Of a stretch of 35,152 bases of DNA, positions 1 to 35,152 are shown one piece after another. Both the position numbers and the translations under genes were made by a program. This DNA is from Candidatus Zixiibacteriota bacterium (GTDB lineage: Bacteria; Zixibacteria; MSB-5A5; GN15; FEB-12): positions 1 to 35,152 of the forward strand of contig JANQPI010000043.1 of assembly GCA_028289585.1 (NCBI GenBank), in the 5' to 3' direction. A model generated the notes under the pieces. That model was not told where the DNA came from. It worked only from the letters and a program-made list of their open reading frames with translations, and did not search any database. Position 1 is the first letter of the stretch, and each line of letters begins with the position of its first letter.

Positions 1-97
1 CCCGTACCGCTCAGATGACAACTACGTTCAGGAGGGATTCGAGGACCGTCTCAAGACGCGCAACCCGCAGCTCGAAAAGCGAATCCACTTCGCGAAC
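1..97. repeat. Terminal direct repeat, left copy (identical to 35056-35152)
   Basis: The first 97 bases are identical, base for base, to the last 97 bases of the window. Both copies are read in the same frame as the same protein segment (the start of a FlgD/Por-like C-terminal domain). This is what a circular contig with a k-mer overlap looks like. It could also be a graph loop closed on two paralogous gene ends. Confidence 0.97.
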
Positions 98-323: not shown

Positions 324-1439
324 CTACCCCTCGATCATTTCGACATTGGCGCGCGGCACCGTTGCCTCGGAACCATCGTCGAACTTCACCGTCAACACAC
401 GCGCTTTCGACTCCGATTCTAGCGCCGTCAACTGTGGCGGCAGACCGGTGACCGCACCGAGCTTGCCAAAGTGCGGATGACGGATGACTCGAATCGGTGA
501 ACCGATGCTGAGGCCAAGCACGTCACCAGCCGTTTCCTCAGCCGCTTTCTCAGCGGCGGGAATGACGACCTCGGGGCGAATGACACCGGCGCGAATCTGG
601 GTCGCACCGTTCATGGACGCGCTTTCGCCCTCGTGGCGCCTGAGCAGGTCGAACGTCTTTTGCGCCATCGTGATCTGACCGAAACCCTCGGTGACGACGA
701 GTTTGGTGTAGATATCTTCCGATCCGGTAATCGCGACCCCAATATCGTAGCCGAGGAAGTCGCGCAGATCTTTGTCGTCGAATCCGCCGACAACAATGCC
801 GCGGACCTTGAGCTCTATCGCCTTCTTGAGGGCGGCAGCGGTAACAAGTGAGCCGCCGACCAGAATCTTGTCTTTGTGCTCGGGTTTGATGAGGTCGTCG
901 GAGAGAACGACCGACGGATTGTCGACCGCGATCTCGACCTGGCCGTGGGTCTCGCCGCCGATACCAAAGATTCCCTGGATGAACGATGCTGAGGTGGAAA
1001 CGACAACACCCTCGTTGGGAATCACTTCGGTGATGGTCCCGGAGAGGTACGCTTTCACCTCAACCGGTGTCGGCTCGGCGCGCTGCAGAACCTGTCCGGT
1101 GACCTTGGAGATCGACTCAATCGTTCCCGAGATCGTCGCCTTACTCTCACTCTTGAAGATCCAGAGAGTGACCGAACGAGCGATAACCTCACCTTCGGCC
1201 ATCGGGTCGCCCTCTTTCTTAATCATCACCGAGTCGATGTCCTCCGGCGGGATGCCAAGCTGGTTACTGACATTGATCGGCTGGACCGCACCGGGGAGGA
1301 GGGTGCGGGCAACAACGTCGTCGGGACCGACCGTGTCGCCTACCTTGACGAGCACGTCCCCTTTGAGCGGGAGGATGCGGCGTTTTTCAACCGTGAGATT
1401 CTCAGTGACTTTCAGTCCGGGAGTATATGCGTGAGCCAT
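324..1439 (-). CDS. KOW-motif protein with N-terminal barrel-sandwich region, third gene of the GlmL operon
   Basis: This is a 371-residue soluble protein with no signal peptide or membrane segment. The N-terminal part (about 20-130) is rich in short beta strands with GDVLVKVGDTVGPDD, reminiscent of barrel-sandwich (RnfC or biotinyl-like) folds. The middle (about 175-290) has an alpha/beta pattern with DKILVGGSLVTAAALKKA and RGIVVGGFDDKDL. The end (about 313-371) is a KOW/SH3-like beta barrel with IRVIRHPHFGKLGAVT and a closing VPRANVEMIEG. It lies 32 bases downstream of the PsbP-like gene and is the last gene of the three-gene operon facing the cassette array. I know of no assigned function. 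The context suggests a cytosolic partner of the GlmL-like ATPase or of the membrane complex. The KOW call is fairly safe, the barrel-sandwich call less so. Confidence 0.8.
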   Translation of the reverse strand: MAHAYTPGLKVTENLTVEKRRILPLKGDVLVKVGDTVGPDDVVARTLLPGAVQPINVSNQLGIPPEDIDSVMIKKEGDPMAEGEVIARSVTLWIFKSESKATISGTIESISKVTGQVLQRAEPTPVEVKAYLSGTITEVIPNEGVVVSTSASFIQGIFGIGGETHGQVEIAVDNPSVVLSDDLIKPEHKDKILVGGSLVTAAALKKAIELKVRGIVVGGFDDKDLRDFLGYDIGVAITGSEDIYTKLVVTEGFGQITMAQKTFDLLRRHEGESASMNGATQIRAGVIRPEVVIPAAEKAAEETAGDVLGLSIGSPIRVIRHPHFGKLGAVTGLPPQLTALESESKARVLTVKFDDGSEATVPRANVEMIEG

Positions 1440-5693: not shown

Positions 5694-5706
5694 CTCAGGT
5701 CTGCCG

Positions 5707-6372
5707 ATGCGCCGCGAAGTACCATTACTCATTACCTTCATCACCGGAGTTGTTTTTGCCCTCTCGTACTTCATTCCCGGTGGTTGGCTTGGTCAGACTG
5801 AGCGGGTATTCGGTGATTGGATTACGATCGTTCAGGCGTTTGCAGTCTGGTTGGGTGTGCTCAATCTGCTCAAGATCTCCCTCATCAAGATCCAGCGTAA
5901 AGAACACGATTGGGGGTACTCGGTTGTCATCGCGGTCTGTTTGGTTGGTACCATTGCAGCTGGCATGTACTCCGGATTTGCCCCCCAATTTGAGTCGTTC
6001 CGTGATCCTGAGACGCCGTTTAACTTTATCTTTCGGAATATCTTCGCGCCCCTTGGGGCGACGATGTTTGCGATTTTGGCGTTCTATGTCGCCTCGGCCT
6101 CGTACCGAGCGTTTCGTGCCCGTAATCGCGAAGCTACAATTCTCCTGATCGCATCATTCTTCGTGATGGGCGGACGAGTGCCGCTGCTTGACTCAATCTT
6201 CATGCCGATTATCGACGGTACATTCTTCGCCGACTTCGCCGGTTGGATTATGAGTTATCCCGTTACTGCCGGTCAGCGTGCGATTGCGATCGGTATTGCT
6301 CTGGGAATTATGGCCAGTTCGCTCCGCGTGATTCTGGGCATCGAACGATCACACATTGGCGGAGGCAACTAG
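5707..6372 (+). CDS. Cassette protein B1: polytopic membrane protein
   Basis: This 221-residue protein has about six hydrophobic helices (near 6-23, 39-56, 72-88, 116-134, 145-165 and 187-208). Signatures shared with B2 and B3 are a basic loop after helix 2 (NLLKISLIKIQRKEHDW), ATMFAILAFYVASASYRAFRARN (about 118-140), and the C-terminal GQRAIAIGIALG plus ILGIERSHIG. The arginine-rich SYRAFRARN segment is the strongest and probably sits on the cytoplasmic face. No catalytic motif or transporter family is recognised. B1 lies between A1 and C1, with 3 bases before C1. Its role as a structural subunit of a membrane complex is inferred from context. Confidence 0.83.
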   Translation: MRREVPLLITFITGVVFALSYFIPGGWLGQTERVFGDWITIVQAFAVWLGVLNLLKISLIKIQRKEHDWGYSVVIAVCLVGTIAAGMYSGFAPQFESFRDPETPFNFIFRNIFAPLGATMFAILAFYVASASYRAFRARNREATILLIASFFVMGGRVPLLDSIFMPIIDGTFFADFAGWIMSYPVTAGQRAIAIGIALGIMASSLRVILGIERSHIGGGN

Positions 6373-6375
6373 CCC

Positions 6376-7311
6376 ATGGCCGGTCACTGGATCGCCGTTG
6401 CTATCAATGTCGTCGTTGGCCTGACCTTGGTTTGGGTCTTGGTCCGCACGATCCAGGGGCGACCGATTGAACGTCGGATCGTTTTTGTCTACATCGCGCT
6501 TGCCGTGGCAACACCCCTTTTCATGAAGCTTGAGGCGCCACTGGCCGAGACGCCGGAGGTTCAGTCGATCGTGACGACGATCAAGGAGCTACCGCCGGGC
6601 TCTCGAATTCTGATATCGTTTGATTATGATCCGCAGTCGGCTCCGGAGCTGCAGCCGATGGCCGAAGCGTTTATCAAGTTCGCATTCAAACAGCGTCACA
6701 AAGTAATCATCATGGGGCTGTGGCCACTCGGACCGGATCAGGCCAACCAGGCGATCCGCGCGGCCTTAGAAGATCCGTCGGTCGCCGAGCTCGCGCCCGA
6801 GTACGGTGTCGACTATGTCAACCTCGGCTTCCAGTCGGGCAATGAGTTTGTGATTCAGGGAATGGGTTCGGCCTTTAAGAACATGTTCCCCCAGGATGAG
6901 CGTGGGACGATCTACGACAATATTCCGATCCTCAGGGGGGTGACCAACTTCTCCAATGTCGATTACGTTCAGGTCTTTTCCTCCGGGAAGCCGGGAACGC
7001 GGGAGTGGGTTCAGGTTGCGGCCGACCGCTTTGGTGCGACTGTGGGCGGCGGAACGACGGCGGTTCAGGCACCGGAGATGTATCCCTTCCTTCGCTCTAA
7101 CCAGTTGATTGGACTAATGGGCGGAATGACCGGCGCCGCGGAGTTTGAGAAGGCTGTCGAAGAACTGGGCAAAGCGAACACGTTTCTGCTATCACAGATG
7201 TTCGCGCACGCAACGGTCATTGTCTTCGTGATCTTTGGAAACATCGCGTACTTCCGGTCGCGTCGCCGAGATGCTTCAACGGATGCGCCAACACCGGGCG
7301 GGATTAGTTAA
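6376..7311 (+). CDS. Cassette protein C1: membrane-anchored extracytoplasmic alpha/beta protein
   Basis: This 311-residue protein has two N-terminal helices (about 6-23 and 35-50) separated by a basic loop (RTIQGRPIERR). A soluble domain follows (about 55-270), then a final helix (about 275-293) ending in RSRRR. The positive-inside rule places the soluble domain outside the membrane. Motifs shared with C2 are PPGSRILISFDYDP (about 73-86), ELQPM, YVNLGFQSGNE (about 147-157), FPQDERGT and LMGGMTGAAEFE (about 247-258). C3 keeps part of them. The strand-helix rhythm suggests a Rossmann-like fold, but I recognise no enzyme family. The conserved Asp and Glu could bind metal or another subunit; this is a guess. 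C1 is 3 bases from B1 and 3 from D1. Confidence 0.83.
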   Translation: MAGHWIAVAINVVVGLTLVWVLVRTIQGRPIERRIVFVYIALAVATPLFMKLEAPLAETPEVQSIVTTIKELPPGSRILISFDYDPQSAPELQPMAEAFIKFAFKQRHKVIIMGLWPLGPDQANQAIRAALEDPSVAELAPEYGVDYVNLGFQSGNEFVIQGMGSAFKNMFPQDERGTIYDNIPILRGVTNFSNVDYVQVFSSGKPGTREWVQVAADRFGATVGGGTTAVQAPEMYPFLRSNQLIGLMGGMTGAAEFEKAVEELGKANTFLLSQMFAHATVIVFVIFGNIAYFRSRRRDASTDAPTPGGIS

Positions 7312-7314
7312 GCC

Positions 7315-7968
7315 ATGAGTCTCGATATTGGCGTCTGGATTGGCGCCCTGCTGACCCTGGGAATCTTCTCGTTCTTGTACAGGGATAATCCCTTCTACAA
7401 GCTCTGCGAGTCGATCTTCGTTGGTGTCTCTGCCGGCTACTGGTTCTGCGTCTTCTTTTTCGACAACATGGTTCGGAAATTCTACTTCGGCGTCTTTCCG
7501 TCGGAAGCAGGTATCGAGCCCAAGTATTTCCTTATCGTCGGGGCAGTCCTCGGCGCGTTAATGCTGACACGTTTGATCCCATCGATAGGTTGGATCTCTC
7601 GCTGGCCGCTGTCGTTTATTGTCGGTGCTACCGCCGGCCTGTACATGATGCTCTTCTTCGTCTCCAACGGTCTCAATCAGGTCGCCGACACCATGTTGCC
7701 GCTTTATCGCGAAACCGCTGGGGGTGACTTCGATCCGGCTGAAACACTGGGTACAATTCTCGTCTTCATCGGAACGTTCACCGGTCTGATCTATTTCTTC
7801 TTTTCCAAGGAACACAAGGGATTGTTCGGCGGAGCTGCTCGCGTCGGTATCTTCTTCCTGATGGTTACCTTCGGTGCTGCGTTTGGGTATACGGTCATGA
7901 GCCGTATGTCGCTGCTAATCGGCCGCATGGATTTCCTCTTCCGCGACTGGTTGGGTCTGCTCGGATAG
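7315..7968 (+). CDS. Cassette protein D1: polytopic membrane protein
   Basis: This 217-residue protein is mostly hydrophobic. It starts with a helix containing FSFLYRDNPFYK (about 18-29), followed by GVSAGYW, both conserved in D2 and D3. Later shared motifs are SRWPLSFIVGATAGL, GLIYFFFSKEHKG and the C-terminal FGAAFGYTVMSRMSLLIGRM. The DNPxYK segment after the first helix and the SKEH turn are the polar spots most likely to matter. I know of no functional assignment. D1 closes the first cassette. Its TAG is one base before the ATG of A2, so translation of the two cassettes is probably linked. Confidence 0.83.
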   Translation: MSLDIGVWIGALLTLGIFSFLYRDNPFYKLCESIFVGVSAGYWFCVFFFDNMVRKFYFGVFPSEAGIEPKYFLIVGAVLGALMLTRLIPSIGWISRWPLSFIVGATAGLYMMLFFVSNGLNQVADTMLPLYRETAGGDFDPAETLGTILVFIGTFTGLIYFFFSKEHKGLFGGAARVGIFFLMVTFGAAFGYTVMSRMSLLIGRMDFLFRDWLGLLG

Positions 7969-7969
7969 C

Positions 7970-9199
7970 ATGATGCCCCCCGCTCCCGGAGCACGGTCCA
8001 TTGCGTCCGGGGGGCGGGTTCTCATTCTCACTCTGACTCTCATCACCCTGACATCGTCACTTCTCGCGACCGATCCCGGTCCCGGATCGATTGCACCGCC
8101 AACGCTCATCATGGTCAACGATCTCGACTATGATAACGGTGAGTCGTTAACGATTTCCTGGGTACCGTCACTCGACGACGTTCCTGGCCAGTCGGAGGTC
8201 GTTGCGTATCGGATTCTTCGGTCGTCAGGAGGCGGTCAGGAAGCAACTATCGGGACTGTTCTCGCGGGTGAGTCGACATTCGTCGACCAATCAGTGAACC
8301 GTGACTCGGCGTACGTCTATCGGGTGGCAACGATCGCTGCGAATGGAGGTGAGGGGTACTCACTTCCCACCGATGCCGTTGTGCCGAACCGGGAGTGGTT
8401 GAATTGGGATCTGGTTTGGCTCTTTCTGGCCTGTCTTGTTTTAGGCGGATCAGTCGTCTTCTTCATTGAGACTGCCCGTCGCGGCAAGAAGCTGTTTGTT
8501 CGCAAGATCGCGGGGCTAGAAGCGATCGACGAGGCGATTGGTCGGGCGACTGAAATGGGTCGACCGATTCTCTATATCCCGGGAATCCAGGATATGGACG
8601 AGGTCGAAACGCTCGCCTCACTGACGATTCTTGGCAAAGTAAGTCGCCAGATTGCCGACTACGACACCCAGCTCTTCATGCCGGTCGCTCGCTCGCTGGT
8701 CATGACCGCCGGCCGGGAGACGATCAAGACGTCATATCTTGAGGCGGGTCGTGCGGATGCGTTCAACGAGGATATGGTACGGTACATCACCGATGAGCAA
8801 TTCGGGTATGTTGCCGCGGTTGATGGGTACATGGTGCGCGAGCGCCCGGCCACGATATTCCTGCTGGGAGCGTTCTTTGGTGAATCGCTGGTGCTCGCCG
8901 AGATGGGTAACTCCGTCGGTGCGATTCAGATTGCCGGTACCGCACGGCCACCGCAGATACCGTTCTTTGTTGCAGCCTGCGATTACACGCTGATCGGTGA
9001 GGAGTTGTTTGCGGCTTCGGCCTATCTTTCCGGTGAACCGCGTCAGCTTGGTTCCTTAAAGGGACAGGACGTGGGCAAGGGAATCGCCATGGCGGTTATT
9101 CTGATCGGTGTCGCGGCCGCCACGATTGCCGAACTTACCGGCAGCGGGTTTTTCGCCGGAGTTGTCAGCACTCTGCAAAACGTCTTCACCACTCGTTAG
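7970..9199 (+). CDS. Cassette protein A2: FN3 ectodomain, membrane anchor, DUF6754-like domain
   Basis: This 409-residue paralogue of A1 has a signal-like helix at about 17-33, an FN3-like part at about 43-138 (SLTISWVPSLDD, AYRILRSS, YVYRVATIAA) and a membrane helix at about 147-167 followed by ETARRGKK. The cytoplasmic domain keeps VRKIAGLEAIDEAIGRATEMGR, PGIQDMDEV, TDEQFGYVAAVDG, RERPATIF, GAIQIAGT and FFVAACDYTLIGEELFAASAYLS. A C-terminal helix follows. In this domain A2 is visibly closer to A1 than A3 is, for example in the shared PGIQDM. A start at the second Met (7973) is equally possible. It lies one base after D1 and 8 bases before B2. Confidence 0.85.
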   Translation: MMPPAPGARSIASGGRVLILTLTLITLTSSLLATDPGPGSIAPPTLIMVNDLDYDNGESLTISWVPSLDDVPGQSEVVAYRILRSSGGGQEATIGTVLAGESTFVDQSVNRDSAYVYRVATIAANGGEGYSLPTDAVVPNREWLNWDLVWLFLACLVLGGSVVFFIETARRGKKLFVRKIAGLEAIDEAIGRATEMGRPILYIPGIQDMDEVETLASLTILGKVSRQIADYDTQLFMPVARSLVMTAGRETIKTSYLEAGRADAFNEDMVRYITDEQFGYVAAVDGYMVRERPATIFLLGAFFGESLVLAEMGNSVGAIQIAGTARPPQIPFFVAACDYTLIGEELFAASAYLSGEPRQLGSLKGQDVGKGIAMAVILIGVAAATIAELTGSGFFAGVVSTLQNVFTTR

Positions 9200-9207
9200 G
9201 CTGGTCG

Positions 9208-9885
9208 ATGAACCGTACGCTGCCGTTTCTATTGACGTTTATTGTCGGCTTTACCATTGTCATTGCGACGTTCTCGCCGCCGCTCGATCGTCTGGCGGTC
9301 GATACTGCAGTCTTCTTTTCAATCATCGCGGTCTTTGCCATGATTCTCGGGGGTGGCAACCTCGTGAAGATCAATCTCGTCAAGATCACCCGCCGGCAGC
9401 GCGACTGGCAGTTTGCCATCGTCACGCTCGTCGGCTTCTTCTTTGTTCTGATTATCGGGCTGTTCAAGGTTGGCAACCCGGGTGGTGTCACCGGGCAGGT
9501 AGATGCCCCGGGCACTCCGTTCTTCGACGTCTACACTTACGTTTTTGTCCCGGTCGGAGCGACGATGTATTCACTCCTGGCGTTCTTCATCGCTTCGGCC
9601 AGCTACCGCGCTTTTCGGGCGAAAAACCGCGAGGCGACGATTCTCCTGATCGCAGCGTCGATCATCATGCTCGGGGCTACGCCGTTCGGTACGATGCTCA
9701 CTGCCTGGATTCCGGATAGCCTCGATATCTTTGAGGTTCCCAACCTCCATTTCTTCCTCATGTCATCTCCGAATCTTGCCGGCCAGCGAGCGATCATGAT
9801 TGGCATTGCTCTCGGTGTGATCTCCTATTCGCTACGCGTACTCCTGGGGGTCGAACGATCCCATATCGGGAAGGATGGCGGGTAG
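9208..9885 (+). CDS. Cassette protein B2: polytopic membrane protein
   Basis: This 225-residue paralogue of B1 and B3 has the same six-helix pattern. It keeps the basic loop NLVKINLVKITRRQRDW, then ATMYSLLAFFIASASYRAFRAKN and EATILLIAA, and ends with GQRAIMIGIALG and VLLGVERSHIG. The loop between helices 3 and 4 (GNPGGVTGQVDAPGTPF) differs from B1 and is probably extracytoplasmic. It sits 8 bases after A2 and 2 bases before C2. Function is unknown. The strict conservation of the Arg-rich segment in all three copies points to a common contact, perhaps with the cytoplasmic domain of A. Confidence 0.83.
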   Translation: MNRTLPFLLTFIVGFTIVIATFSPPLDRLAVDTAVFFSIIAVFAMILGGGNLVKINLVKITRRQRDWQFAIVTLVGFFFVLIIGLFKVGNPGGVTGQVDAPGTPFFDVYTYVFVPVGATMYSLLAFFIASASYRAFRAKNREATILLIAASIIMLGATPFGTMLTAWIPDSLDIFEVPNLHFFLMSSPNLAGQRAIMIGIALGVISYSLRVLLGVERSHIGKDGG

Positions 9886-9887
9886 GT

Positions 9888-10802
9888 ATGACAACGGGAG
9901 TCATTTTTACATTGGTCGTGATCGGTGGGGCTCTGGCGTACTTTGCCTGGCGTTCACTGCGCGGCAAGGAAATCGACCGGCGTCTGATCTTCCTCGTAAT
10001 CGGAGCCACGGTGGCGCTGCCGCTGATCTTCCCGCTGGAATTTGAGCATCAACCGTCGCCGCTGGTTGAACGCATCTATGAGCGTATTGAGGCGCTACCG
10101 CCCGGTAGCCAGATCTTACTCTCCTACGATTTTGATCCGGGGATGGCGCCGGAGGTACAGCCGATGGCTGACGTCATCACTCGCCATGTCCTCGCTCGGG
10201 GGCACCGCATCGCCTTTATGTCGCTGTGGGCAACCGGTCAGGCACAGCTGAATCAGACACTCAACAACGTTATTCCGGTCGACTTTCCTGAAGCTGAAAT
10301 CGAGCGTGACTGGGTGAATCTGGGCTTCAAGGCGGGTAACGAGGGTGTGCTTCGTGTTATTGCCAGTGACCTTCCCAAAATGTTCCCCACCGATGTCGAG
10401 GGACGGCCAACCGCCGGGATGCCCGCCCTGGAGGGCATCCGGTCGGCGGGTGATTTCGATCTCGTGATCTCCTTTGGTGGAGGTAAGCCCGGTCCCCGAG
10501 AATGGATTCTCTTTGTCGCTGATCCGACTGGTGTCGATTTCGCCGCCGGGACGGCGGCGGTGTCCGCTCCCGAACTCTATCCGTACTACCCGAATCAGAT
10601 GCTCGGCCTGATGGGCGGCGCGAAAGGGGCTGCGGAGTACGAAACCGCATTCATGGGCCAGTATGAGCAATTCGCCGACATGCCATCGCCGGGTCGCCGC
10701 ATCATGGGACCACTGACAATGGCCCATATTGTGATTCTGGCCCTCATCGTGCTGGGTAATGTCATCTACTTTCGTTCGCGCCGGGAGCGAGGGACAGCGT
10801 GA
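9888..10802 (+). CDS. Cassette protein C2: membrane-anchored extracytoplasmic alpha/beta protein
   Basis: This 304-residue paralogue of C1 has two N-terminal helices with an intervening WRSLRGKEIDRR loop, a soluble domain and a C-terminal helix ending in RSRRER. It retains PPGSQILLSYDFDP (about 71-84), EVQPM, DWVNLGFKAGNEG, FPTDVEGRP and LMGGAKGAAEYE. The strings LGFxxGNE and LMGGxxGAAE(F/Y)E are shared with C1. The gene overlaps D2 by four bases (GTGA), the tightest coupling in the array. Predicted topology again puts the soluble domain outside the cytoplasm. No family name is known to me. Confidence 0.83.
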   Translation: MTTGVIFTLVVIGGALAYFAWRSLRGKEIDRRLIFLVIGATVALPLIFPLEFEHQPSPLVERIYERIEALPPGSQILLSYDFDPGMAPEVQPMADVITRHVLARGHRIAFMSLWATGQAQLNQTLNNVIPVDFPEAEIERDWVNLGFKAGNEGVLRVIASDLPKMFPTDVEGRPTAGMPALEGIRSAGDFDLVISFGGGKPGPREWILFVADPTGVDFAAGTAAVSAPELYPYYPNQMLGLMGGAKGAAEYETAFMGQYEQFADMPSPGRRIMGPLTMAHIVILALIVLGNVIYFRSRRERGTA

Positions 10803-11608
10803 GGCGGAGCACGCTCATTGGCGGCAGTCTTGTCGTGGTCTTCTTTCTGGCCGCTTGGTTAATCAAGGGAGCTGGAGCGAGTGGCGAGTCACCCTACTAC
10901 TCGGCGTTTCTGATAACCCTGGCAGCATTCCTGACGCTGGCGGTCTTCTCGTTTCTGTATGCCGATAACCCGGTCTACAAGTTTGCTGAGCATCTGTTTG
11001 TTGGTGTCTCGGCAGCGTATTGGATGGTGCTCGGATTCTGGCAAACGCTCGTTCCCAATCTGATCCCCCGCATCTCTCGGGCGCTTTCGGAACAACTTGA
11101 GCTTGAATACATCGATGAACTCTGGAACGTATTGTACGTCATACCGGTCGTTCTCGGTATTCTGCTGCTACTGAGACTCTCCCGAAAGCTCGGTTGGCTT
11201 TCCCGCTATGCGGTCGCCTTCATTGTCGGGACGACTGCCGGTCTCAATTTCATTGCTTACACGCGGTCAAATTTCATGGCCCAGATCTCCTCAACGTTCC
11301 TTCCGCTCGTCGGTGATTGGACATCGTGGGCGGCGTTTGTTGACAATCTGTCGCTTTCCGCAACCGGGCCACTCGCGCTCCTGATGGCCAATATTGTCGT
11401 CGTCCTGGGGGTTGTCTGTGGCCTCATTTATTTCTTCTTTTCTCGCGAACATTCCGGCACCTTCGGCATGGCCTCGCGGCTGGGGATTTGGATATTGATG
11501 ATCACGTTCGGTGCGTCGTTCGGTTACACCGTGATGGGAAGGATTTCGCTTCTCGTTGGACGGATGACGTTCCTGCTACGTGACTGGTTGGGAATCATAG
11601 CTTCGTGA
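10799..11608 (+). CDS. Cassette protein D2: polytopic membrane protein with an extra N-terminal helix
   Basis: This 269-residue protein starts at GTG inside the stop of C2. Compared with D1 it has an added N-terminal helix (LIGGSLVVVFFLAAWLI) and a longer central loop. It keeps FSFLYADNPVYK, GVSAAYW, LSRYAVAFIVGTTAGL, GLIYFFFSREHSG and FGASFGYTVMGRISLLVGRM. The core is clearly homologous to D1 and D3. The extra helix would change the side on which the N-terminus lies. It is followed by a 23-base gap before A3, the widest inside the array. Confidence 0.82.
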   Translation: MRRSTLIGGSLVVVFFLAAWLIKGAGASGESPYYSAFLITLAAFLTLAVFSFLYADNPVYKFAEHLFVGVSAAYWMVLGFWQTLVPNLIPRISRALSEQLELEYIDELWNVLYVIPVVLGILLLLRLSRKLGWLSRYAVAFIVGTTAGLNFIAYTRSNFMAQISSTFLPLVGDWTSWAAFVDNLSLSATGPLALLMANIVVVLGVVCGLIYFFFSREHSGTFGMASRLGIWILMITFGASFGYTVMGRISLLVGRMTFLLRDWLGIIAS

Positions 11609-11631
11609 GTCTAGCTAACATAGGGTAGAGT

Positions 11632-12906
11632 ATGCAACAGAAGCACTTCTGGCGGTTCGTTATCGGCTTGGCGCTGATGACAATGGCCACGGCGCTCGGT
11701 CAGTCGGAGGCGGACCCCCCCGTCAGTGATACACTGGCCGTTGCCGACACTGCGGCGATTTCGGTTCCGGCACCACTGCCGGTGACAAACCTGATTGCCA
11801 GAGACAAACCGAACGATCGTGGGTATGGAATCTCCCTCTCCTGGGATCTTTCGCCCGACGATACCGGCGGCACACAGAGCGTTCTCGGGTATCGTATCAT
11901 GCGGTCGACAACTCCCGACGGCCCGTGGGATTCGATCAACGTTGCGGGATCCGGTGACGCGTTGTATGACCATATCGGTCCTCGCCATGAGGGCGATTCG
12001 GGGTACTTCCCCGATCACACCGATATGTACTATCGTGTTGATGTCCTCACTGCTGATCCAGGCGTGGCGGTGTCATCGGGGGTGGTGGGACCGGTCCAAT
12101 CTCGCGGACAATGGTTCAATACCGCTCGAACTGTTGTCTTTCTCTTCATGATTGCGTTCTGCGGCCTGGTCATCTGGTTTGTCACCCATGCTCGACGCGG
12201 CAAAGATCTCTATGTCCGACCGCTGGCGGGTATCGAGGCGGTCGATGAGGCAGTGGGGCGTGCTACCGAGATGGGGAAACCGATCCTCTATCTCTGTGGG
12301 CTTGGCGATGCGGCGGAAGTCCCGACGATTGCCTCGTTTACGATTCTTGGCCGAGTCGCCAAGCGGGTGGCCGAGTACCAGACCCAAATCATCGTCCCCT
12401 GCCGTGACCCGATCGTCATGACGGTTGCGCAGGAAGTGGTCAAAACCGCCTACTCCGACGCGGGTCGACCGGATAGCTATAATCCTGACTCGGTCTTCTT
12501 CCTGACGATTGAGCAGTTCGCCTATGTGGCCGGAGTGAACGGTATCATGTTGCGCGATAAGCCGGCCACGAACGTGTATATGGGCAAGTTCTACGCGGAG
12601 TCACTGATCTTTGCCGAGACGGGTACGATGGCCGGTTCGATTCAGATCGCCGGAACAGATGAGATCCCGCAGATCCCGTTCTTCTTCGTCGCCTGCGACT
12701 ACACCTTGATCGGTGAGGAGCTGTACGCGGCGTCGGCCTACCTGTCGCGCGAGCCGGTGCTCTTGGGATCGCTGAAAGCTCAGGATTACGCCAAAGCGGC
12801 GATCATCGTCTTTGCGATTCTCGGCTTCCTGGCGACCAACGTGTCCGCGCTCGGTGGGCCGGAGTGGCTGGCTGGTTTCGTTGACCTCTTCCAGGTGAGA
12901 GAATAG
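11632..12906 (+). CDS. Cassette protein A3: FN3 ectodomain, membrane anchor, divergent DUF6754-like domain
   Basis: This 424-residue paralogue has a signal-like segment (about 8-23), an FN3-like ectodomain (about 48-155; ISLSWDLSPDD, GYRIMRSTTPDG, YYRVDVLTA), a membrane helix (about 166-185) and THARRGKD at the cytoplasmic boundary. The cytoplasmic domain keeps EAVGRATEMGK, TIEQFAYVAGVNG, GSIQIAGT and FFVACDYTLIGEELYAASAYLS. It replaces PGIQDM with CGLGDA, and RERPATIF with RDKPATNV. A3 is therefore the most divergent A copy and may occupy a distinct position in the complex. It is 9 bases before B3. The ATG is preceded by an A/G-rich GGGTAGAG. Confidence 0.85.
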   Translation: MQQKHFWRFVIGLALMTMATALGQSEADPPVSDTLAVADTAAISVPAPLPVTNLIARDKPNDRGYGISLSWDLSPDDTGGTQSVLGYRIMRSTTPDGPWDSINVAGSGDALYDHIGPRHEGDSGYFPDHTDMYYRVDVLTADPGVAVSSGVVGPVQSRGQWFNTARTVVFLFMIAFCGLVIWFVTHARRGKDLYVRPLAGIEAVDEAVGRATEMGKPILYLCGLGDAAEVPTIASFTILGRVAKRVAEYQTQIIVPCRDPIVMTVAQEVVKTAYSDAGRPDSYNPDSVFFLTIEQFAYVAGVNGIMLRDKPATNVYMGKFYAESLIFAETGTMAGSIQIAGTDEIPQIPFFFVACDYTLIGEELYAASAYLSREPVLLGSLKAQDYAKAAIIVFAILGFLATNVSALGGPEWLAGFVDLFQVRE

Positions 12907-12915
12907 GAGCGAGCC

Positions 12916-13584
12916 ATGAAACGACAACTACCGTTCTTTCTCGTCTTCGTTTTCGGCGCCTTCATGGCAATTCAGTACTTCGTACCGCATAAGACGTCCG
13001 AGGCGATCTACGAGTTCTTCATCGATATTCTACCGATCATCGGTGTCTTCGCGCTGGCGTTGGGTATCTGGTCGCTGACTAAAGTGTCGGTTGACAAGAT
13101 CCGCTACCGTCGGGAAAACTGGCAGTACGCGATCTTCACCCTGCTCGGTCTCTTCCTGATGATTCTTTTCGGTTTCACCGATGAGAATTGGGGGTTCCAT
13201 TGGCGAATGAGCCCGGAGGTAGCTGGCGAGGGGACTGACAACCCGAACTTCCGCCTGCTCTTCAACTACGTGATGATTCCGATTCAGGCGACGATGTTTG
13301 CGCTGCTGGCGTTCTTCATCGCCTCGGCGTCCTACCGCGCGTTCCGCGCCCGTAACCTGTTGGCGACGTTGCTGTTGATTGCGGCGTTGATCCTCATGTT
13401 GCGATTCACCCCGTTCTTCGGCGACTGGATCGGCCTCCGCCTCTCGGAAACGGCGACGTGGTTGATGAATGTTCCCAACACGGCCGCACAGCGGGCGATT
13501 GTTATGGGAGTTGGGCTGGGGCTGGTAGCTACCGCGCTCAAGGTCGTTCTCGGTATTGAACGTGACTACATGGGACGGGGGTAG
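12916..13584 (+). CDS. Cassette protein B3: polytopic membrane protein
   Basis: This 222-residue paralogue of B1 and B2 is preceded by AGGAGC as a likely ribosome binding site. The basic loop reads SLTKVSVDKIRYRRENW. The main signature is retained (ATMFALLAFFIASASYRAFRARN), but the next positions change from REATILLIA to LLATLLLIA. The C-terminus is AQRAIVMGVGLG with VVLGIERDYMG in place of ERSHIG. It is the most divergent B copy, in parallel with A3 and C3. It is 3 bases from C3. Confidence 0.83.
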   Translation: MKRQLPFFLVFVFGAFMAIQYFVPHKTSEAIYEFFIDILPIIGVFALALGIWSLTKVSVDKIRYRRENWQYAIFTLLGLFLMILFGFTDENWGFHWRMSPEVAGEGTDNPNFRLLFNYVMIPIQATMFALLAFFIASASYRAFRARNLLATLLLIAALILMLRFTPFFGDWIGLRLSETATWLMNVPNTAAQRAIVMGVGLGLVATALKVVLGIERDYMGRG

Positions 13585-13587
13585 CCA

Positions 13588-14472
13588 ATGAAAGCAACAT
13601 TTGAAAAGTTGATGCTGCTCGACCGCCGCTGGGTCTTTCTCGCTCTGGCTGTGGTGGGCGTGGCGAGCTACTCGCTGAAAGATTTTCAGGTCCCGATTCT
13701 GGTGACCAACGAATCGCGCCAGATCTTCGCGGCGATCGATGAGTTGGAAGAAGGGGCAACGATCTTTCTGTCGATCGATTACGACCCCAACTCACTTGCT
13801 GAGCTCCATCCGATGACCTACGCGATCATGGAACACGCCTTCCGCCGAGGAGTGCGGATCGTGATCACATCGCTCTCGACCAACGGTCCCGGTATGGCCG
13901 ATGAAGCGATCCGAGCGATCGCCGATTCGGTGCGCATAGATCGCGAATACAACGGCGTCATGTATCCCGGGCGGGAGGTGGTGAACGGTGTGGACTACGC
14001 CTTCCTTGGCTACAAACCGTACCCGGCCATTGTCATCCTCGCCATGGGGCAGGATTTCCGCATACCGTTCCCGGCTGATTACTACGGAACGCCGTTGGAA
14101 GAACTGCCGCTGATGGAGAACGTCCGGAATCTTTCGTCCACGGAATGTGTCATCGTCATTACCGGGACCAACATTGCGGACATGTGGCTGGCCTATGGTC
14201 AGGCTCGACAGGGATTTCCCCTGGCTTTTGGACTGACGGGCGTGTCCACCGCTCAGTACTATCCGTACCTTAATTCGGGACAGCTCTTTGGCTTGCTCGG
14301 CGGGATGCTTGGCGCGGCCGAGTACGAGCAGTTGGCGGACAATCCGGGGCTGGCTCTCGATGGTATGCGGGTGCAACTCTTCCTGCACTGGACAATCATC
14401 ATCTTCATCGTCATTGGTAACGTCGGGTTCTTTGTTACCCGCAAGCGCCGCGGAGCGGGAGGTAACGTCTAA
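13588..14472 (+). CDS. Cassette protein C3: divergent membrane-anchored extracytoplasmic alpha/beta protein
   Basis: This 294-residue paralogue of C1 and C2 has only one clear N-terminal helix (about 15-30), preceded by DRR, so the N-terminus would be cytoplasmic and the domain outside. The C-terminal helix ends in TRKRRG. It keeps IFLSIDYDPNS (about 59-69), AELHPM, YPYLNSGQLFGLLGG and GAAEYEQ. The LGFxxGNE motif has become LGYKPYPA. A motif common to two copies is thus missing in the third, which suggests C3 is the non-equivalent partner. It shares one base with D3 (TAATG). Confidence 0.83.
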   Translation: MKATFEKLMLLDRRWVFLALAVVGVASYSLKDFQVPILVTNESRQIFAAIDELEEGATIFLSIDYDPNSLAELHPMTYAIMEHAFRRGVRIVITSLSTNGPGMADEAIRAIADSVRIDREYNGVMYPGREVVNGVDYAFLGYKPYPAIVILAMGQDFRIPFPADYYGTPLEELPLMENVRNLSSTECVIVITGTNIADMWLAYGQARQGFPLAFGLTGVSTAQYYPYLNSGQLFGLLGGMLGAAEYEQLADNPGLALDGMRVQLFLHWTIIIFIVIGNVGFFVTRKRRGAGGNV

Positions 14473-15254
14473 TGGAGTTCTGGAACTTCTTCTGGACCAC
14501 CGTCGCCGCGTTCTTCACGCTGGCCACGTTCTCATTCCTCTACAAGGATAACCCGCTATATAAGATCGCCGAGCACCTGGTGGTGGGCGTCTCCGCCGGC
14601 TTCTTCGTCATGGTACTGTGGCATACGACGCTGGTACCTAACCTCATCGATCGACTCGCTGACGGTCGCTGGATCTATCTGATCCCCTTAGTCCTGGGGC
14701 TGATGATGTGGTTCCGCTTCTCCAAGAAGCTGTCGTGGATGTCGCGGTATCCGATGGCTGTCTATATCGGCATCGGGGCTGGTGTCGCCATACCGTTGGA
14801 AATGGCGACCAAGGTCATCCGGCAGCTGAACGGGATGATGCGGCCGATCGACTGGGAGAACTTCTTCGGGGCTGGCTGGCTCGATGTCACGGCCGGTTTC
14901 TCGGGGATACTGCTCTTTGTCGGCGCGATTGCCGGGCTGATCTATTTCTTCTTCTCGAAGGCGCATACCGGCGTATTCGGCGGAGTGGCAAAGTTCGGCC
15001 TGTGGATTCTAATGCTTGGCTTCGGGGCGTCGTTTGGATTTACGGTGATGGCGCGTATCTCGCTACTCATCAACCGCATCCAGTTCCTGGATAACGAGTG
15101 GATCTCAAACGCGTTCGACAGCTCGAACGAGCATTACACGGTGATGTACCCGATTCTGTTCTGGTTAGTCATTCTCGGTTTGGTTGCGTATATCGTGTAC
15201 GAGATCATCGCATACCGGCGCCGGGGGCCTGAAGAGACAGCCGGAACGACATAG
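14472..15254 (+). CDS. Cassette protein D3: polytopic membrane protein with an extra C-terminal helix
   Basis: This 260-residue paralogue of D1 and D2 begins MEFWNFFWTTVAAFF and carries FSFLYKDNPLYK, GVSAGFF, MSRYPMAVYIGIGAG, GLIYFFFSKAHTG and FGASFGFTVMARISLLINRI. Unlike D1 and D2 it continues past the conserved end with a polar loop and one more helix (YPILFWLVILGLVAYIVYEIIAY), then RRRGPEETAG in the cytoplasm. It is the last gene of the array. The terminator stem begins 31 bases after its stop codon. Confidence 0.83.
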   Translation: MEFWNFFWTTVAAFFTLATFSFLYKDNPLYKIAEHLVVGVSAGFFVMVLWHTTLVPNLIDRLADGRWIYLIPLVLGLMMWFRFSKKLSWMSRYPMAVYIGIGAGVAIPLEMATKVIRQLNGMMRPIDWENFFGAGWLDVTAGFSGILLFVGAIAGLIYFFFSKAHTGVFGGVAKFGLWILMLGFGASFGFTVMARISLLINRIQFLDNEWISNAFDSSNEHYTVMYPILFWLVILGLVAYIVYEIIAYRRRGPEETAGTT

Positions 15255-19762: not shown

Positions 19763-21202
19763 ATGGCAACTCCACCACGAGTTCGTATTGCGCCATCTCC
19801 ATCGGGCTACCTCCATGTCGGCACCGCGCGGACGGCGATCTTCAACTGGCTTTTCGCCCGTCATCACGGGGGACAGTTTCTGATCCGGATCGAGGATACC
19901 GATGCCGAACGATCCGATCCGGCCCTTGTTGACCCGATCCTGGACGCCCTGCGTTGGCTTGGTATCGAGTCCGATGAGGAACTCGTCTTTCAGTCGTCAC
20001 GCAAGGACCGGTATGCCGAGCTGGCGCAACAGCTACTGGCGTCGGGTCACGCGTATCGTTGCTTCGCGACGCCCGAGGAGCTGGAAGAGATGCGCAATCA
20101 GGCGCGTGCTGAGAAGCGGCCACCGATGTACGATCGACGTGGGCTGCGGCTGACCGATGATGAGGTGGCGGCCAACCTCGCTGCCGCTAAGCCGCACGTG
20201 TTGCGATTACGTATTCCGGATGGTGAAACTACGTTCGATGACATGGTCGCCGGGCCGATTACTCGGCAGAACAAAGACATCGAAGATCTGATCATTGCTC
20301 GATCAGATGGATCGGCGACGTACAATCTGGCGGTCGTGATCGATGATCACGAGATGGGGATGAGTCATGTGATTCGGGGCAATGACCATATTTCCAACAC
20401 GTTCAAGCAGATACACCTCTACCAGGCGTTCGGGTGGGAGGTGCCCCGCTTTGGTCACGTCCCGCTGATTCTCCGTCCGGATAAGAAGAAGGTTAGTAAG
20501 CGCTTGGGTGACAAAGATGTTGGCGAGTATCGTCACGACGGGATCCTCCCTGAGGCGATGTTTAACTATCTCTGTCTGCTTGGTTGGTCGCCGAAGACGG
20601 ATCGTGAGCACTACACCGTCGACGAACTGGTCACCATCTTTGATGATGCGAACTTTAATGCGAGCAATGCCGTCTTCGACGAAGACAAGCTGAGCGCGTT
20701 CAACAAAGCCCACATTCAGTTGGCCGATGTCGACGTACTGCTACCGCGTGTGGTGCGAGAATATGTCTCTGCGGGGATCATGACTGAAGCTTCGGCCAGT
20801 GATCAGACCGAGCGATTTCGAACGATGATAGCAACTGTCCGGGAGCGAACGCGCCGTCTTTCAGACTTCGTTTCTCTTGGTTCGTACTTCTTCTCTTTCG
20901 ACTATACGTACGACGAAAAGGGGAGCGCGAAACACCTCACCGCTGAGGCGGTGCCGCTGTTGACAGAATTCGGCACTCGTTTGGCGGCGCTGGATCGGTT
21001 TGACGAGCCGTCGGTCGAACAGGTCCTTTCGGAAGTTGCGGAAGAGCGGGGAGTAAAACGGGCGCAGTTGATCCACCCCACTCGTCTCGCTGTTTCGGGG
21101 ATGACGGTTGGTCCATCGCTGTTCACATTGTTGGTCGCCCTTGGCCGCGAGACCGTCATCGAACGAGTGAAAAAAACTGTTGCCATCCTGTCCGGCGGCT
21201 GA
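19763..21202 (+). CDS. gltX: Glutamyl-tRNA synthetase
   Basis: This 479-residue class I synthetase charges tRNA with glutamate. The N-terminus has APSPSGYLHVGTART, where HVGT at about 18-21 is the HIGH-type signature. It is followed by RIEDTD and RSDP. The KMSKS counterpart is KVSKR at 243-247 in a KKKVSKRLGD context. The insertion domain includes CFATPEELEEMR and PPMYDRR. The helical anticodon-binding part fills residues after about 320. The length is normal for a bacterial GltX. Whether it is discriminating (tRNA-Glu only) or also charges tRNA-Gln cannot be told by eye, and no gat genes are in the window. It starts 9 bases after the DUF3566-like gene. Confidence 0.97.
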   Translation: MATPPRVRIAPSPSGYLHVGTARTAIFNWLFARHHGGQFLIRIEDTDAERSDPALVDPILDALRWLGIESDEELVFQSSRKDRYAELAQQLLASGHAYRCFATPEELEEMRNQARAEKRPPMYDRRGLRLTDDEVAANLAAAKPHVLRLRIPDGETTFDDMVAGPITRQNKDIEDLIIARSDGSATYNLAVVIDDHEMGMSHVIRGNDHISNTFKQIHLYQAFGWEVPRFGHVPLILRPDKKKVSKRLGDKDVGEYRHDGILPEAMFNYLCLLGWSPKTDREHYTVDELVTIFDDANFNASNAVFDEDKLSAFNKAHIQLADVDVLLPRVVREYVSAGIMTEASASDQTERFRTMIATVRERTRRLSDFVSLGSYFFSFDYTYDEKGSAKHLTAEAVPLLTEFGTRLAALDRFDEPSVEQVLSEVAEERGVKRAQLIHPTRLAVSGMTVGPSLFTLLVALGRETVIERVKKTVAILSGG

Positions 21203-30755: not shown

Positions 30756-31571
30756 TCAGGTCAGGGTCAACTGTTCCGGAATGGCTCCCTTACCCAGGGC
30801 GGCGATTCGTGCTGAACGCCGTTTGAAGCTATTCTGATTCATCAAGCCAACGACTCGGTCGATCTCCTCGGCAGTGAAGCCGTCAGCAAGGAGAGTCGCC
30901 TGGTCTCGGACGTGATCGTCAAGAAGACGCACGAGGATGCGGTCGATGACATCGTAGGTCACGCCAATTTCATCTTCGTCTGTCTGGTCGACCCAGAGGT
31001 CGGCCGACGGTGGCTTGGTGATAATCGACGCCGGAATCCCAAGGTACGCCGAAAGCGACCGAACCTCGGTCTTGTAGAGTTGCCCGATCGGGTTAAATGA
31101 ACAGGCCGCGTCCCCAAAGAGCGTCGTGTAGCCAAGCGCGATCTCGGTACGATTCCCCGTACCGACCACCAGCGCGTTGCGTTCCCAGGCGAGATCGAAA
31201 AGAATCGACATCCGCTCGCGGGCCATTTTGTTACCGGCGCGAATCGGATCGGGGAGACCGTCGACATAGTACCGTTCGATCATTGGCGTGATGTCGATCA
31301 TCGTTGTTTCAATACCGAGCCAGGCTGCGAGCTTGCGGGCATCGTCGACCGACGACGGGGTCGATGTCGCATACGGCATCATCACGCCGAGGACCGCATC
31401 AGCCCCCAGCGCGCGGGCGGCGAGTGTCGATGCCAACGCTGAGTCAATACCACCAGACAATCCAATGACGACATTCGACAGTTTCGCCGACTCAAGTTCG
31501 TCGCGGATGAAGCCCTCAATGGTGGTTGCGGTCTTGTCGAGGGCGGGCGTATCGGTTTGACTGATCATCAT
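30756..31571 (-). CDS. nadE: Ammonia-dependent NAD synthetase
   Basis: This 271-residue enzyme amidates deamido-NAD to NAD with ATP. The PP-loop is VIGLSGGIDSALAS. VVGTGNRTEIALGYTTLFGD and FNPIGQLYKTEVR are typical for the NadE synthetase part, as is ITKPPSADLWVDQTDEDEIG. There is no N-terminal nitrilase/glutaminase domain, so ammonia or a separate glutaminase is the source of nitrogen. I start at the first of two adjacent Met codons (31571/31568). An upstream ATG at 31619 adds sixteen residues of no homology. It begins the operon nadE-rsmI-PAP2-lgt, and nadA of the same pathway lies on the other strand. Confidence 0.95.
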   Translation of the reverse strand: MMISQTDTPALDKTATTIEGFIRDELESAKLSNVVIGLSGGIDSALASTLAARALGADAVLGVMMPYATSTPSSVDDARKLAAWLGIETTMIDITPMIERYYVDGLPDPIRAGNKMARERMSILFDLAWERNALVVGTGNRTEIALGYTTLFGDAACSFNPIGQLYKTEVRSLSAYLGIPASIITKPPSADLWVDQTDEDEIGVTYDVIDRILVRLLDDHVRDQATLLADGFTAEEIDRVVGLMNQNSFKRRSARIAALGKGAIPEQLTLT

Positions 31572-31919
31572 ACTTGTTCTAACCGCAAGGAAAGGGTGGA
31601 GTTTCCTCCCGGCCAACAAAAATCGACCCTTTTAAGGTGTTGCTGGATAGGAGGTTAAGAGGAGGTCGATGCAGTTGCCTCGAAGCCCGGTGAAAAGCGA
31701 TGCCGCGATTGGAGAAGCGTCGTCTGCTGTGTGCTGAGCGGTTGCAAACGAGACATTGGGGAATTGGGTGACGATTGTTAACAGAAAATGACTCGAATAT
31801 CATTGCACGAATTCGGTGATTCATCGTTATTTCACTTATCACAGACGCGACAACGTACGCTTGGGGTTGAGGAATTTCAGTGTGTGCGGTCGTGGCCCCA
31901 TTCGTAGGGGGGAGGTTCG
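31572..31919. other. Divergent intergenic region between nadE and the thioredoxin-like gene
   Basis: No gene is credible in these 348 bases. Rightward a good promoter pair is seen (listed separately). Leftward I find no good -35/-10 pair for nadE, only a GGGAGG well upstream of its start. The stretch is more AT-rich than the housekeeping genes to its left. Confidence 0.5.
31775..31803 (+). promoter_or_regulatory. Candidate promoter for the secretion-oriented gene group
   Basis: TTGTTA (31775-31780), 17 bases, then TATCAT (31798-31803), five of six matches to the -10 consensus. It lies about 115 bases before the TTG start of the thioredoxin-like gene. Confidence 0.5.
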
Positions 31920-32492
31920 TTGAAGCGTTCAATCAACATCCTGCTGGCTATCCTTCTGCCCGGAATAGCACTGGCGCTCGGGTATATACTCACATCAAAC
32001 CTGAATGTTGACGCGGAAACCGGGGTGCATCGTCCTGATGATCGGTGGGTTGCAGTTGACAGTCAGTGGCGCGATCTGGGAATCTGGCCTGATGTTGAAA
32101 CCGGAGATGATTGGCCCATACCCCTGAATGGAATGGTCTACCCCGATCGGCCAACTGTTGTGTTTGTGCTAAGCGGTGGCGATTGTCCGGACTGTACGGA
32201 GCTGCTTGATGAATGGCATTTATACATGCCACCGAGTTCTACGATTCCCTACAACCTGATTATGGCTGCGGACGAGCTAATGGATAGTACTGGTCCGGGA
32301 GAGGTGCTCTGGCAAGCACAGTCAATACACGTCGTTTCAATGCCCAATCCATATGAAGTGGGCGTACGGCTTTTTCCTACTCTTTTCCTGCTTGATGCAG
32401 ACCGTCGAATTTCAGCAATCCAAATCGGCTGGGGAGGGATGATCAAAGAGAGTATTCGCACAACACTGCGACGCGATGTGCCCTGGGACTAG
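31920..32492 (+). CDS. Membrane-anchored thioredoxin-fold protein with CPDC
   Basis: This 190-residue protein starts at TTG, preceded by GGAGG with a 4-base spacer. An N-terminal helix (INILLAILLPGIALALGYIL) anchors or exports it. The domain has TVVFVLSGGDCPDCTELLDEW with redox-type Cys89-Pro-Asp-Cys92 after a strand, and VRLFPTLFLLD, where the Pro stands for the cis-Pro of thioredoxins. That fits an extracytoplasmic thiol-disulfide protein (TlpA/thioredoxin-like). The insertion between CPDC and the cis-Pro is short, without a peroxiredoxin Cys. The next gene, 49 bases on, encodes a ten-cysteine exported peptide, an obvious candidate substrate. That link is inference. Confidence 0.75.
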   Translation: MKRSINILLAILLPGIALALGYILTSNLNVDAETGVHRPDDRWVAVDSQWRDLGIWPDVETGDDWPIPLNGMVYPDRPTVVFVLSGGDCPDCTELLDEWHLYMPPSSTIPYNLIMAADELMDSTGPGEVLWQAQSIHVVSMPNPYEVGVRLFPTLFLLDADRRISAIQIGWGGMIKESIRTTLRRDVPWD

Positions 32493-32541
32493 AAGACAAT
32501 ATCTCCGGGCAGTTAATCTCTCACATTTCGAAGGAGGACGC

Positions 32542-32799
32542 ATGAAGAGAATCGTTGCGAGCTTAACAATAGCTGGGTTCCTGATTGGAGGCTTACTCGG
32601 CTTACCCGCAGAGTCAGATGCCGATCCAGCCTGTGGTGGATGCATGATCAATCAGTCTTGTTGTTGCGAGTCGGTCATCTATACGATCGGAGACGCATCT
32701 TGTCCAAGTGGACAACGGTATGCCCAAAACTTCGGCAGTGGACCGAGCTGTGATCTGTGTCATACTTGCGAATACGGTTGTGTACCACCCGAGATCTAG
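32542..32799 (+). CDS. Secreted cysteine-rich small protein
   Basis: This 85-residue protein has AAGGAGG with a proper spacer before the ATG. The signal peptide (MKRIVASLTIAGFLIGG and following) probably ends near residue 23-27. The mature part of about 60 residues holds ten cysteines in CGGC, CCC, then single Cys, and CDLCHTC plus GC near the end, with few other hydrophobic residues. This suggests several disulfides or a bound metal or cofactor. I recognise no family. A longer frame from 32476 overlaps the preceding gene and lacks the signal. It is probably co-transcribed with the CPDC protein. Confidence 0.78.
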   Translation: MKRIVASLTIAGFLIGGLLGLPAESDADPACGGCMINQSCCCESVIYTIGDASCPSGQRYAQNFGSGPSCDLCHTCEYGCVPPEI

Positions 32800-32938: not shown

Positions 32939-35152
32939 GTGATTGCATTGACGAGGCGTGCAGGCTTGGCTCTCTGTCTATTGCTTCTACCCTCATACGT
33001 CTTGGCTCAGGACTTACCCGCTACTCAGTACCTGTCACATGCGCAGGGCCAACTAGGTGTTACCGTCACCAACAACGGTGGCATAGTTGCTGGCACTTTA
33101 GAGAATCTGGGCGTCGACCCGATCAACGGTCGCCGCGTGCTGTTTGCTGAGTACCCCCTTGGTAGTGGAATCGGATACATGCCGAGCAATCTCATTGTCG
33201 GCGGTATACGTGGAGCGGATACGCTCGTAACGGTTGTCCGATGGGGGCCCGACTTCAGTCGATGGCCGGGCGTGCGAATCGAATCGATCGATCGGACGCT
33301 CGATTTCTTTGCCGAAACGGCACGCTCGCCTCTCGACATCATCAGTCAGTATTCAGATACCGCATCCGCGTTGCGAGCACCTGATACCCTTTCTGACCTT
33401 TCTCATTCACCACTCGGTGTGCTTGTATCCCAGCGCTCTATGAGCTGGTCTGGCGGAAATCTTGACGGCATGGTTTTGTACGAAGTTTCTGTCGAGAACA
33501 TCACGAACGAGCTTCTTCGAGATGTCGTTGTGGGCATTGCTGTCTCAACGGGTGGAAAGCACATTTCGGAACGGATCATATCGTCGCCATATCTCCAGCG
33601 AGGAGCATTGCACTATTTCGACCGAGAGCCGTCGACATCGCGCTGTGGTGTTCGTCTGCCAATCGAGCTCTTTACCACCTGGGATCTCGCCGGGCAACCA
33701 CTGAACGGTAGCTATACGGCGCGTTCTGTACTCGGGTCGATGGGCATTCGCATTCTAAGTTTCCCTAGCGACCTTGTTCGGGGTGTCACGTTTAACTGGG
33801 TAAGTCTCATTCAGAGTGGCATTTTCTACTCACCGGCGATACCGAGTGACAATGTGGGTGGCCTGGGGATCGATTTACGATTTGGAAACGATACAGAATT
33901 CTACCGTTTTTTGGCTAACCGCAATTTCGATTTCAATCCTCTCTTCTCGGGAGTCCCATTTGCGATTGGGCAGTACCTCCCACCGCCTCGATCGGCGTTG
34001 CAGTCGATAGTTCGCGACGGGTTTGCACTCACCGGATATCTTTCCCTTGGCACTTTTGACCTGGCTCCCGGCGAGGATGCAACGTTCGTCTTTGCGGTGG
34101 TGGCGGGTGATTCTGTCATAACAGATCCAACGACCTATGAACGACTAGCCGTCGAAGATCCGAACGCGTACCTCTCGGAACTCGATTTCAGTGAGATCAC
34201 GGAAAACACACTCTGGGCGACGTGGGTCTACGATAACCCGGGTATCGATTCCGACGGCGACGGATTCCGCGGCGAGTACTATCTCTGCGAGGGGGATACC
34301 GTCTGGTGGAAAGGGGATGGGATCGCCGACTGGCGAGCCGATGTCCCCCCGCCGGCACCGTTCGTCGAAGTCCTGCCAGAAACCGGCAAACTGACCGTCC
34401 GCTGGAATGGCTACTTCTCGGAGACAACCGTCGACCCGTTCACGCAGCAGCAGGATTTTGAGGGATACCGGGTCTACATCGGCCGGGATGAACGGCCATC
34501 GTCGGCGAGCCTGTTAACGTCCTGGGATGCGGAGAACTACAACCGGTTCGAACTAATCCAGCGGGAGTCGGGGGATTTCGAATGGCTCAACCGGGAAAAC
34601 CCGTTCTCGATCGATTCGCTGGAAACGCTCTACGGTCTCGGCTTTGATCCGCTGCTCTATACTCGTCAGACGCCACTGCGGGTCGACGGGTCGATCTTCT
34701 ACTTCGAGCCGCAGGACTTCAACGTCTCCGAACTCGGCATTCCGGGTCGCATTAGGAAACGCTTCCCGAACCAACCGAAGCCGGACCCCGACCCGGCCAA
34801 CTGGAGCGACGACGAAGTGATCTTCGGCCCCGACAACCGCCGTCTGCCGAAGTACTACGAGTACGAGTATGTGATCGACAGTTTGCTGCCGTCAGTCCCG
34901 TGGTATGTGGCGGTGACGGCGTTTGACTTCGGCTTCGCCAAGGGAGGCATCCCGGCGAAAGAGTCACCGCTGCTCACCACGCAGACAGAAAGCTATGCGC
35001 TCACGTCGGCTACTACGGCCGTATCCGAGAATCTCGATGTTTTCGTCTATCCGAACCCGTACCGCTCAGATGACAACTACGTTCAGGAGGGATTCGAGGA
35101 CCGTCTCAAGACGCGCAACCCGCAGCTCGAAAAGCGAATCCACTTCGCGAAC
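32939..35152 (+). CDS. Large secreted protein with FN3-like region and C-terminal sorting-type domain (runs off the window)
   Basis: An open frame of 738 codons from GTG 32939 runs to the window end without a stop. The start gives a signal peptide (ALTRRAGLALCLLLLPSYVLAQ). The first half is beta-rich without a known motif. About residue 430 begins a part with NPGIDSDGDGF, a calcium-type Asp loop, then YYLCEGDTVWWKGDG. An FN3-like region follows (VEVLPETGKLTVRWNG, FEGYRVYIGRD, WYVAVTAFDFG). The last segment, ENLDVFVYPNPYRSDDNY, opens the C-terminal beta-sandwich. Because the final 97 bases equal bases 1-97 in the same frame, the gene probably ends at position 310, for 808 residues in total. 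Such proteins are common in Zixibacteria-like and other FCB phyla. The function is unknown. Confidence 0.85.
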   Translation, partial: MIALTRRAGLALCLLLLPSYVLAQDLPATQYLSHAQGQLGVTVTNNGGIVAGTLENLGVDPINGRRVLFAEYPLGSGIGYMPSNLIVGGIRGADTLVTVVRWGPDFSRWPGVRIESIDRTLDFFAETARSPLDIISQYSDTASALRAPDTLSDLSHSPLGVLVSQRSMSWSGGNLDGMVLYEVSVENITNELLRDVVVGIAVSTGGKHISERIISSPYLQRGALHYFDREPSTSRCGVRLPIELFTTWDLAGQPLNGSYTARSVLGSMGIRILSFPSDLVRGVTFNWVSLIQSGIFYSPAIPSDNVGGLGIDLRFGNDTEFYRFLANRNFDFNPLFSGVPFAIGQYLPPPRSALQSIVRDGFALTGYLSLGTFDLAPGEDATFVFAVVAGDSVITDPTTYERLAVEDPNAYLSELDFSEITENTLWATWVYDNPGIDSDGDGFRGEYYLCEGDTVWWKGDGIADWRADVPPPAPFVEVLPETGKLTVRWNGYFSETTVDPFTQQQDFEGYRVYIGRDERPSSASLLTSWDAENYNRFELIQRESGDFEWLNRENPFSIDSLETLYGLGFDPLLYTRQTPLRVDGSIFYFEPQDFNVSELGIPGRIRKRFPNQPKPDPDPANWSDDEVIFGPDNRRLPKYYEYEYVIDSLLPSVPWYVAVTAFDFGFAKGGIPAKESPLLTTQTESYALTSATTAVSENLDVFVYPNPYRSDDNYVQEGFEDRLKTRNPQLEKRIHFAN
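35056..35152. repeat. Terminal direct repeat, right copy (identical to 1-97)
   Basis: This stretch is identical to the first 97 bases of the window and in the same reading frame. See the entry at 1-97 for the two explanations. Confidence 0.97.

Follow-up and report, generated by a model that had tools for sequence, protein, structure and literature searches.

Repeats in metagenome assembly graphs may generate "phantom" (spurious) cycles with no circular genome behind them, as described for the DomCycle method (PMC9104695). We have analyzed a stretch of 35,152 bp (hereinafter, the window), which is the entire contig C19 of a genome assembly comprising 3,152,376 bases in 55 contigs, 99.63% complete. 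The contig closes on itself and resembles the phantom cycles of the DomCycle paper in that the graph is closed into a cycle by a repeat element, without a circular genome; unlike the cases treated there, a single contig passes through a single node of 101 bp, and it is the gene order in relatives, instead of read pairs, that resolves the cycle. The loop of C19 is most probably an artefact of a known kind and no real replicon. Almost certainly, C19 is a linear piece of the chromosome, in which the contig order is C44, C19, reversed C18, and its ends match each other through a repeat shared by two paralogous genes.

Terminal Repeat of the Contig

The first and the last 97 bases of C19 are identical, as had been noticed in the original prediction, and no longer exact terminal overlap is found when lengths up to 2 kb are tested. 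A chance match is ruled out by the 97 exact bases. When the ends are joined, a stop-free frame of 808 codons runs from position 32939 through the join to position 310, with a start that looks, by eye, like a signal peptide. The original prediction considered this frame as one gene; it is indeed open, but its two halves, both from C19, are probably wrongly paired. The downstream half of the gene starting at 32939 should be the copy at C18; the fragment at the beginning of C19 (2–310) is expected to complete the gene that C44 breaks off in. The C18 and C19 copies of the C-terminal part differ by one residue in 102.

The genome-wide search for the 97-mer yields four full-length occurrences: two at the ends of C19, one at the end of C44 (92471–92567 of 92567, plus strand), and one at the end of C18 (311234–311330 of 311330, minus strand), while an 81% relative is located inside C18. 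Among the 21 of 55 contigs with readable ends, the repeat node thus has two entries, C44 and C19, and two exits, C19 and reversed C18, and such further entries and exits are what a phantom cycle should have. The original prediction had proposed to look for further copies in the same bin, and to abandon the circular molecule if reads led from the segment into other sequence; at the contig level, C44 and C18 provide exactly this. Its simpler reading, an assembly loop on a domain of paralogous secreted proteins, is supported by these exits and by the gene order in relatives (see below). The main features of the window are summarized in Table 1.

Table 1. Features of the window (contig C19) considered in this study.
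Feature	Coordinates	Strand	Comment
Left terminal repeat	1..97	+	Bases 1–99 common to the start of reversed C18
Secreted paralogue A, C-terminal 102 codons	2..310	+	N-terminal part at the end of C44, as placed by synteny
Left-border gene, 371 aa, conserved	324..1439	-	Single match in the genome; adjacent to tolQ in 15 of 24 relatives
gltX	19763..21202	+	Only copy found in the genome
nadE-like, conserved right-border gene	30756..31619	-	Single match in the genome; lpxD close by in 17 of 24 relatives
Small thioredoxin-like ORF	31920..32492	+	Identified by eye, CPDC motif; first gene of the cassette, recurring just past the join on reversed C18
Small Cys-rich secreted-looking peptide, ends with CVPPEI	32542..32799	+	On C18, a counterpart that also ends with CVPPEI is encoded ahead of the third paralogue (P3)
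Secreted paralogue B, N-terminal 738 codons	32939..35152	+	Last 70 codons predicted on reversed C18
Right terminal repeat	35056..35152	+	Last 99 bases (35054–35152) common to the end of C44

Overlap Lengths of Contig Ends

Overlaps of contig ends were compared for 21 of the 55 contigs, the 34 contigs with N at their ends being left out. Apart from the repeat considered here, overlaps of exactly 99 bp are observed between different contigs in three pairs (C16/C18, C16/C29, and C23/C29), and three contigs (C5, C42, and C48) overlap with themselves by exactly 99 bp. Shorter overlaps are of 97 bp (the repeat of C19, and C35 with itself), 82 bp (C20/C21), and 39 bp (C21/C23). From these data we infer that the assembler used k = 99.

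At 99 bp, the matches of C19 to other contigs, on the right to the end of C44 and on the left to the start of reversed C18, are longer than its overlap with itself, 97 bp. As the entering and the leaving pairs share 99 bp each, the exact repeat is 101 bp long (97 + 2 + 2). With k = 99, a repeat of this length leads to a self-overlap of 97 bp, whereas direct closure would yield 99 bp. We explain the matching ends of C19 by assembly having broken off, left and right, at a short stretch common to two related secreted-protein genes.

The scheme we propose, with very high confidence, is as follows. Genes A, across the C44/C19 border, and B, across the C19/C18 border, flank C19 in the same orientation and have in common, close to the 3' end of each, the exact 101-bp stretch, whose identity probably reflects gene conversion or a recent duplication. 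At k = 99, this stretch collapsed to a single short node that is entered twice and left twice, and the assembler halted at the node on every side, so that C19 starts and ends with the same 97 bases and looks circular.

A genuine extrachromosomal circle of 35 kb (plasmid or chromid), carrying gltX, nadA, nadE, lgt, and other genes, with C44 joined directly to C18 in the chromosome, agrees with the exact terminal overlap and the closed 808-codon frame, and in the graph taken alone C44 could also lead straight into C18, leaving C19 as a circle of its own. Still, the ends of a circular replicon should overlap by k and share this overlap with no other contig, but C19 overlaps with itself by 97 bp, not by 99 bp as the self-overlapping C5 and C42, and the repeat is shared with C44 and C18. 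No replication or partition gene was recognized by eye in the list of open reading frames; the scan against Pfam covered nine window proteins or their pieces. A viral or plasmid origin of the window was also considered, and no virus-like gene was noticed in the same list by eye.

Contigs C5 (loci L014 and L064) and C42 (loci L050, L124, L125, and L070) carry genes of phage portal, major head, and large terminase proteins. Being putatively circular, they illustrate the appearance of closed contigs in this assembly, and are possibly complete phages binned with the genome. Contig C48 (L056), with the self-overlap of 99 bp, is 3,004 bp long. Contig C35 (L043), of 3,605 bp, has the self-overlap of 97 bp, as C19 does, and we count this against the linear placement of C19.

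Gene Order in Related Genomes

We searched 24 relatives for four genes that mark the borders, namely tolQ from the end of C44, the 371-aa left-border gene, nadE, and lpxD from the end of C18, with the resulting tables counted by hand. Gene names here and below (tolQ, lpxD, skp, bamA, uvrB, etc.) are those we presume from the sequences, except for MutL and DUF6754, which were assigned in the Pfam scan. The gene tolQ adjoins the left-border gene in 15 relatives (one match of the latter is a fragment), and the gap between them, 286–774 bp, is too short for gene A. In 17 relatives nadE and lpxD are found on one contig within 4 kb (one match of lpxD is a fragment). The left-border gene, nadE, and lpxD are in this order and on the predicted strands on one contig in four relatives (G009, G004, G008, and G003), and in two of these (G009 and G004) all four markers are on one contig, in order and on the predicted strands. 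The block order is not universal, as in G007, G012, and G027 the left-border gene and nadE are on different contigs or far apart.

The four collinear relatives were searched by tblastn with 33 genes of the window and 14 genes from its flanks. Collinear with the window are 28 of the 33 window genes in G009, 27 in G004, 23 in G008, and 26 in G003. In G009, the tol-pal genes precede the block, and it is followed by the counterpart of a 198-aa ORF from C18, lpxD, skp, bamA, uvrB, and a flotillin-like gene, all of them being oriented as the arrangement C44 (+), C19 (+), C18 (–) predicts. The right flank of the block is also present in G008 and G003. In G003, about 22 kb of additional DNA (C38, 35464–57475; loci L121 and L122) separate a fabI-like gene from lgt, and the paralogue from C18 weakly (22%) matches one place approximately 12 kb beyond lpxD.

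A circular replicon should be located outside the chromosome of relatives, but the block lies between tol-pal and lpxD on single contigs in both G009 and G004. Due to this gene order, a circle is not needed to explain the contig. Given the overlap length, the additional exits from the repeat, synteny, and gltX with no second copy, we reject the 35-kb circle, whose existence we consider next to impossible. If such a circle were real, an essential tRNA-synthetase gene would reside only on an extrachromosomal molecule; the evidence speaks against that.

Gene B and two small ORFs upstream of it were not found in the collinear stretches of G009, G004, G008, and G003, and therefore are inserts at the right border of the block. 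The border genes missing at the respective places in these relatives are gene A, following tolQ, and the set of the thioredoxin-like ORF, the Cys-rich peptide, and gene B, following nadE.

Paralogous Secreted Proteins and Their Cassettes

The reversed contig C18 starts with a similar set of genes, that is, a thioredoxin-like ORF that looks divided between two reading frames, the gene of a Cys-rich peptide ending with CVPPEI, and that of the secreted protein P3. Joining C19 to C18 thus places two cassettes, each consisting of a thioredoxin-like ORF, a Cys-rich peptide, and a secreted protein, head to tail. The thioredoxin-like ORF of the window matches no Pfam or NCBIfam family. The set is possibly a disulfide-linked cassette of secreted proteins. 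A Cys-rich peptide of 92 aa is also encoded near a further paralogue on C21 (the cassette loci are the window, 31920–32799; L007, 13659–14673; and L075), and three more paralogues of the family are arranged in tandem on C18 (44260–51606; L074, L076, and L077).

Genes A and B are 84.7% identical at the DNA level over 953 bp on the 3' side; in the 310-bp tails the identity reaches 93.9%, compared to 83–85% between either of these tails and P3. Out of 388 codons 144 differ between A and B, yet 33 consecutive codons are identical, and none of 20,000 codon shuffles reached such a run (the maximum was 32). This run suggests that the copies have exchanged sequence. The pattern of identity fits gene conversion or partial recent duplication, to which the merging of a bubble during assembly could have contributed.

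These direct repeats, with their 953-bp similarity, the nearly identical tails, and the exact 101-bp stretch, form a substrate for recombination, and the 33-codon run is consistent with past exchange. One could suppose that recombination between them has, in some cells that carry the C44–C19–C18 chromosome, also tandemly duplicated the 35-kb segment or excised it as a circle. The assembly does not require it, as the linear path uses each edge of the node once, and the merging of a bubble, if it occurred, could also inflate the identity; we regard this possibility as extremely improbable. It is very unlikely, too, that A and B recombine so often that some cells have the 35-kb block, with gltX, nadE, and lgt, in tandem duplicate or as an excised circle, the looped contig being a record of a real minority junction. 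The preferred explanation is the linear order C44, C19, reversed C18 in the chromosome.

The secreted family is represented in the genome by seven further loci besides the two split tails, and its members are found in all 40 relatives searched. The search of genome contigs with protein B yields 17 distant loci with the best segments 31–45% identical, mostly from "Candidatus Zixiibacteriota" or "candidate division GN15"; judging by these distant relatives, the organism whose metagenome assembly is considered here is Zixibacteria-like. The long N-terminal part has no match among Pfam and NCBIfam families at E = 0.01.

The family resembles cargo proteins of type IX secretion (Por_Secre_tail, TIGR04183; CHU_C, PF13585) in being secreted-looking, large, and multi-copy, with a weakly similar C-terminal tail. 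Unlike such cargo, both A and B lack a C-terminal sorting domain scoring above the curated cut-offs, as their tail yields 18.7 bits for TIGR04183 (cut-off 23) and 18 bits for PF13585 (cut-off 27). On the other hand, C18 encodes a homologue of the translocon protein SprA (TIGR04189), scoring 527.9 bits over the frame at the cut-off of 200, while none of 14 control genomes has one. As a working guess based on sequence comparison, the secreted family may be exported by the type IX system, and we do not claim its membership among the known cargo. Our literature search for type IX secretion in Zixibacteria found no paper.

DUF6754 Array

In the region 4458–15254 of the window, a set of four genes, one encoding a DUF6754 protein and the others being additional ORFs, occurs three times head to tail. 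This 12-gene array is conserved in all four relatives examined (G009, G004, G008, and G003). No paper was found in our literature search for DUF6754.

Implications

The analysis removes a false candidate replicon and provides a cheap rule for similar cases: a terminal overlap that differs in length from the assembly k and is common to other contig ends indicates a repeat loop.
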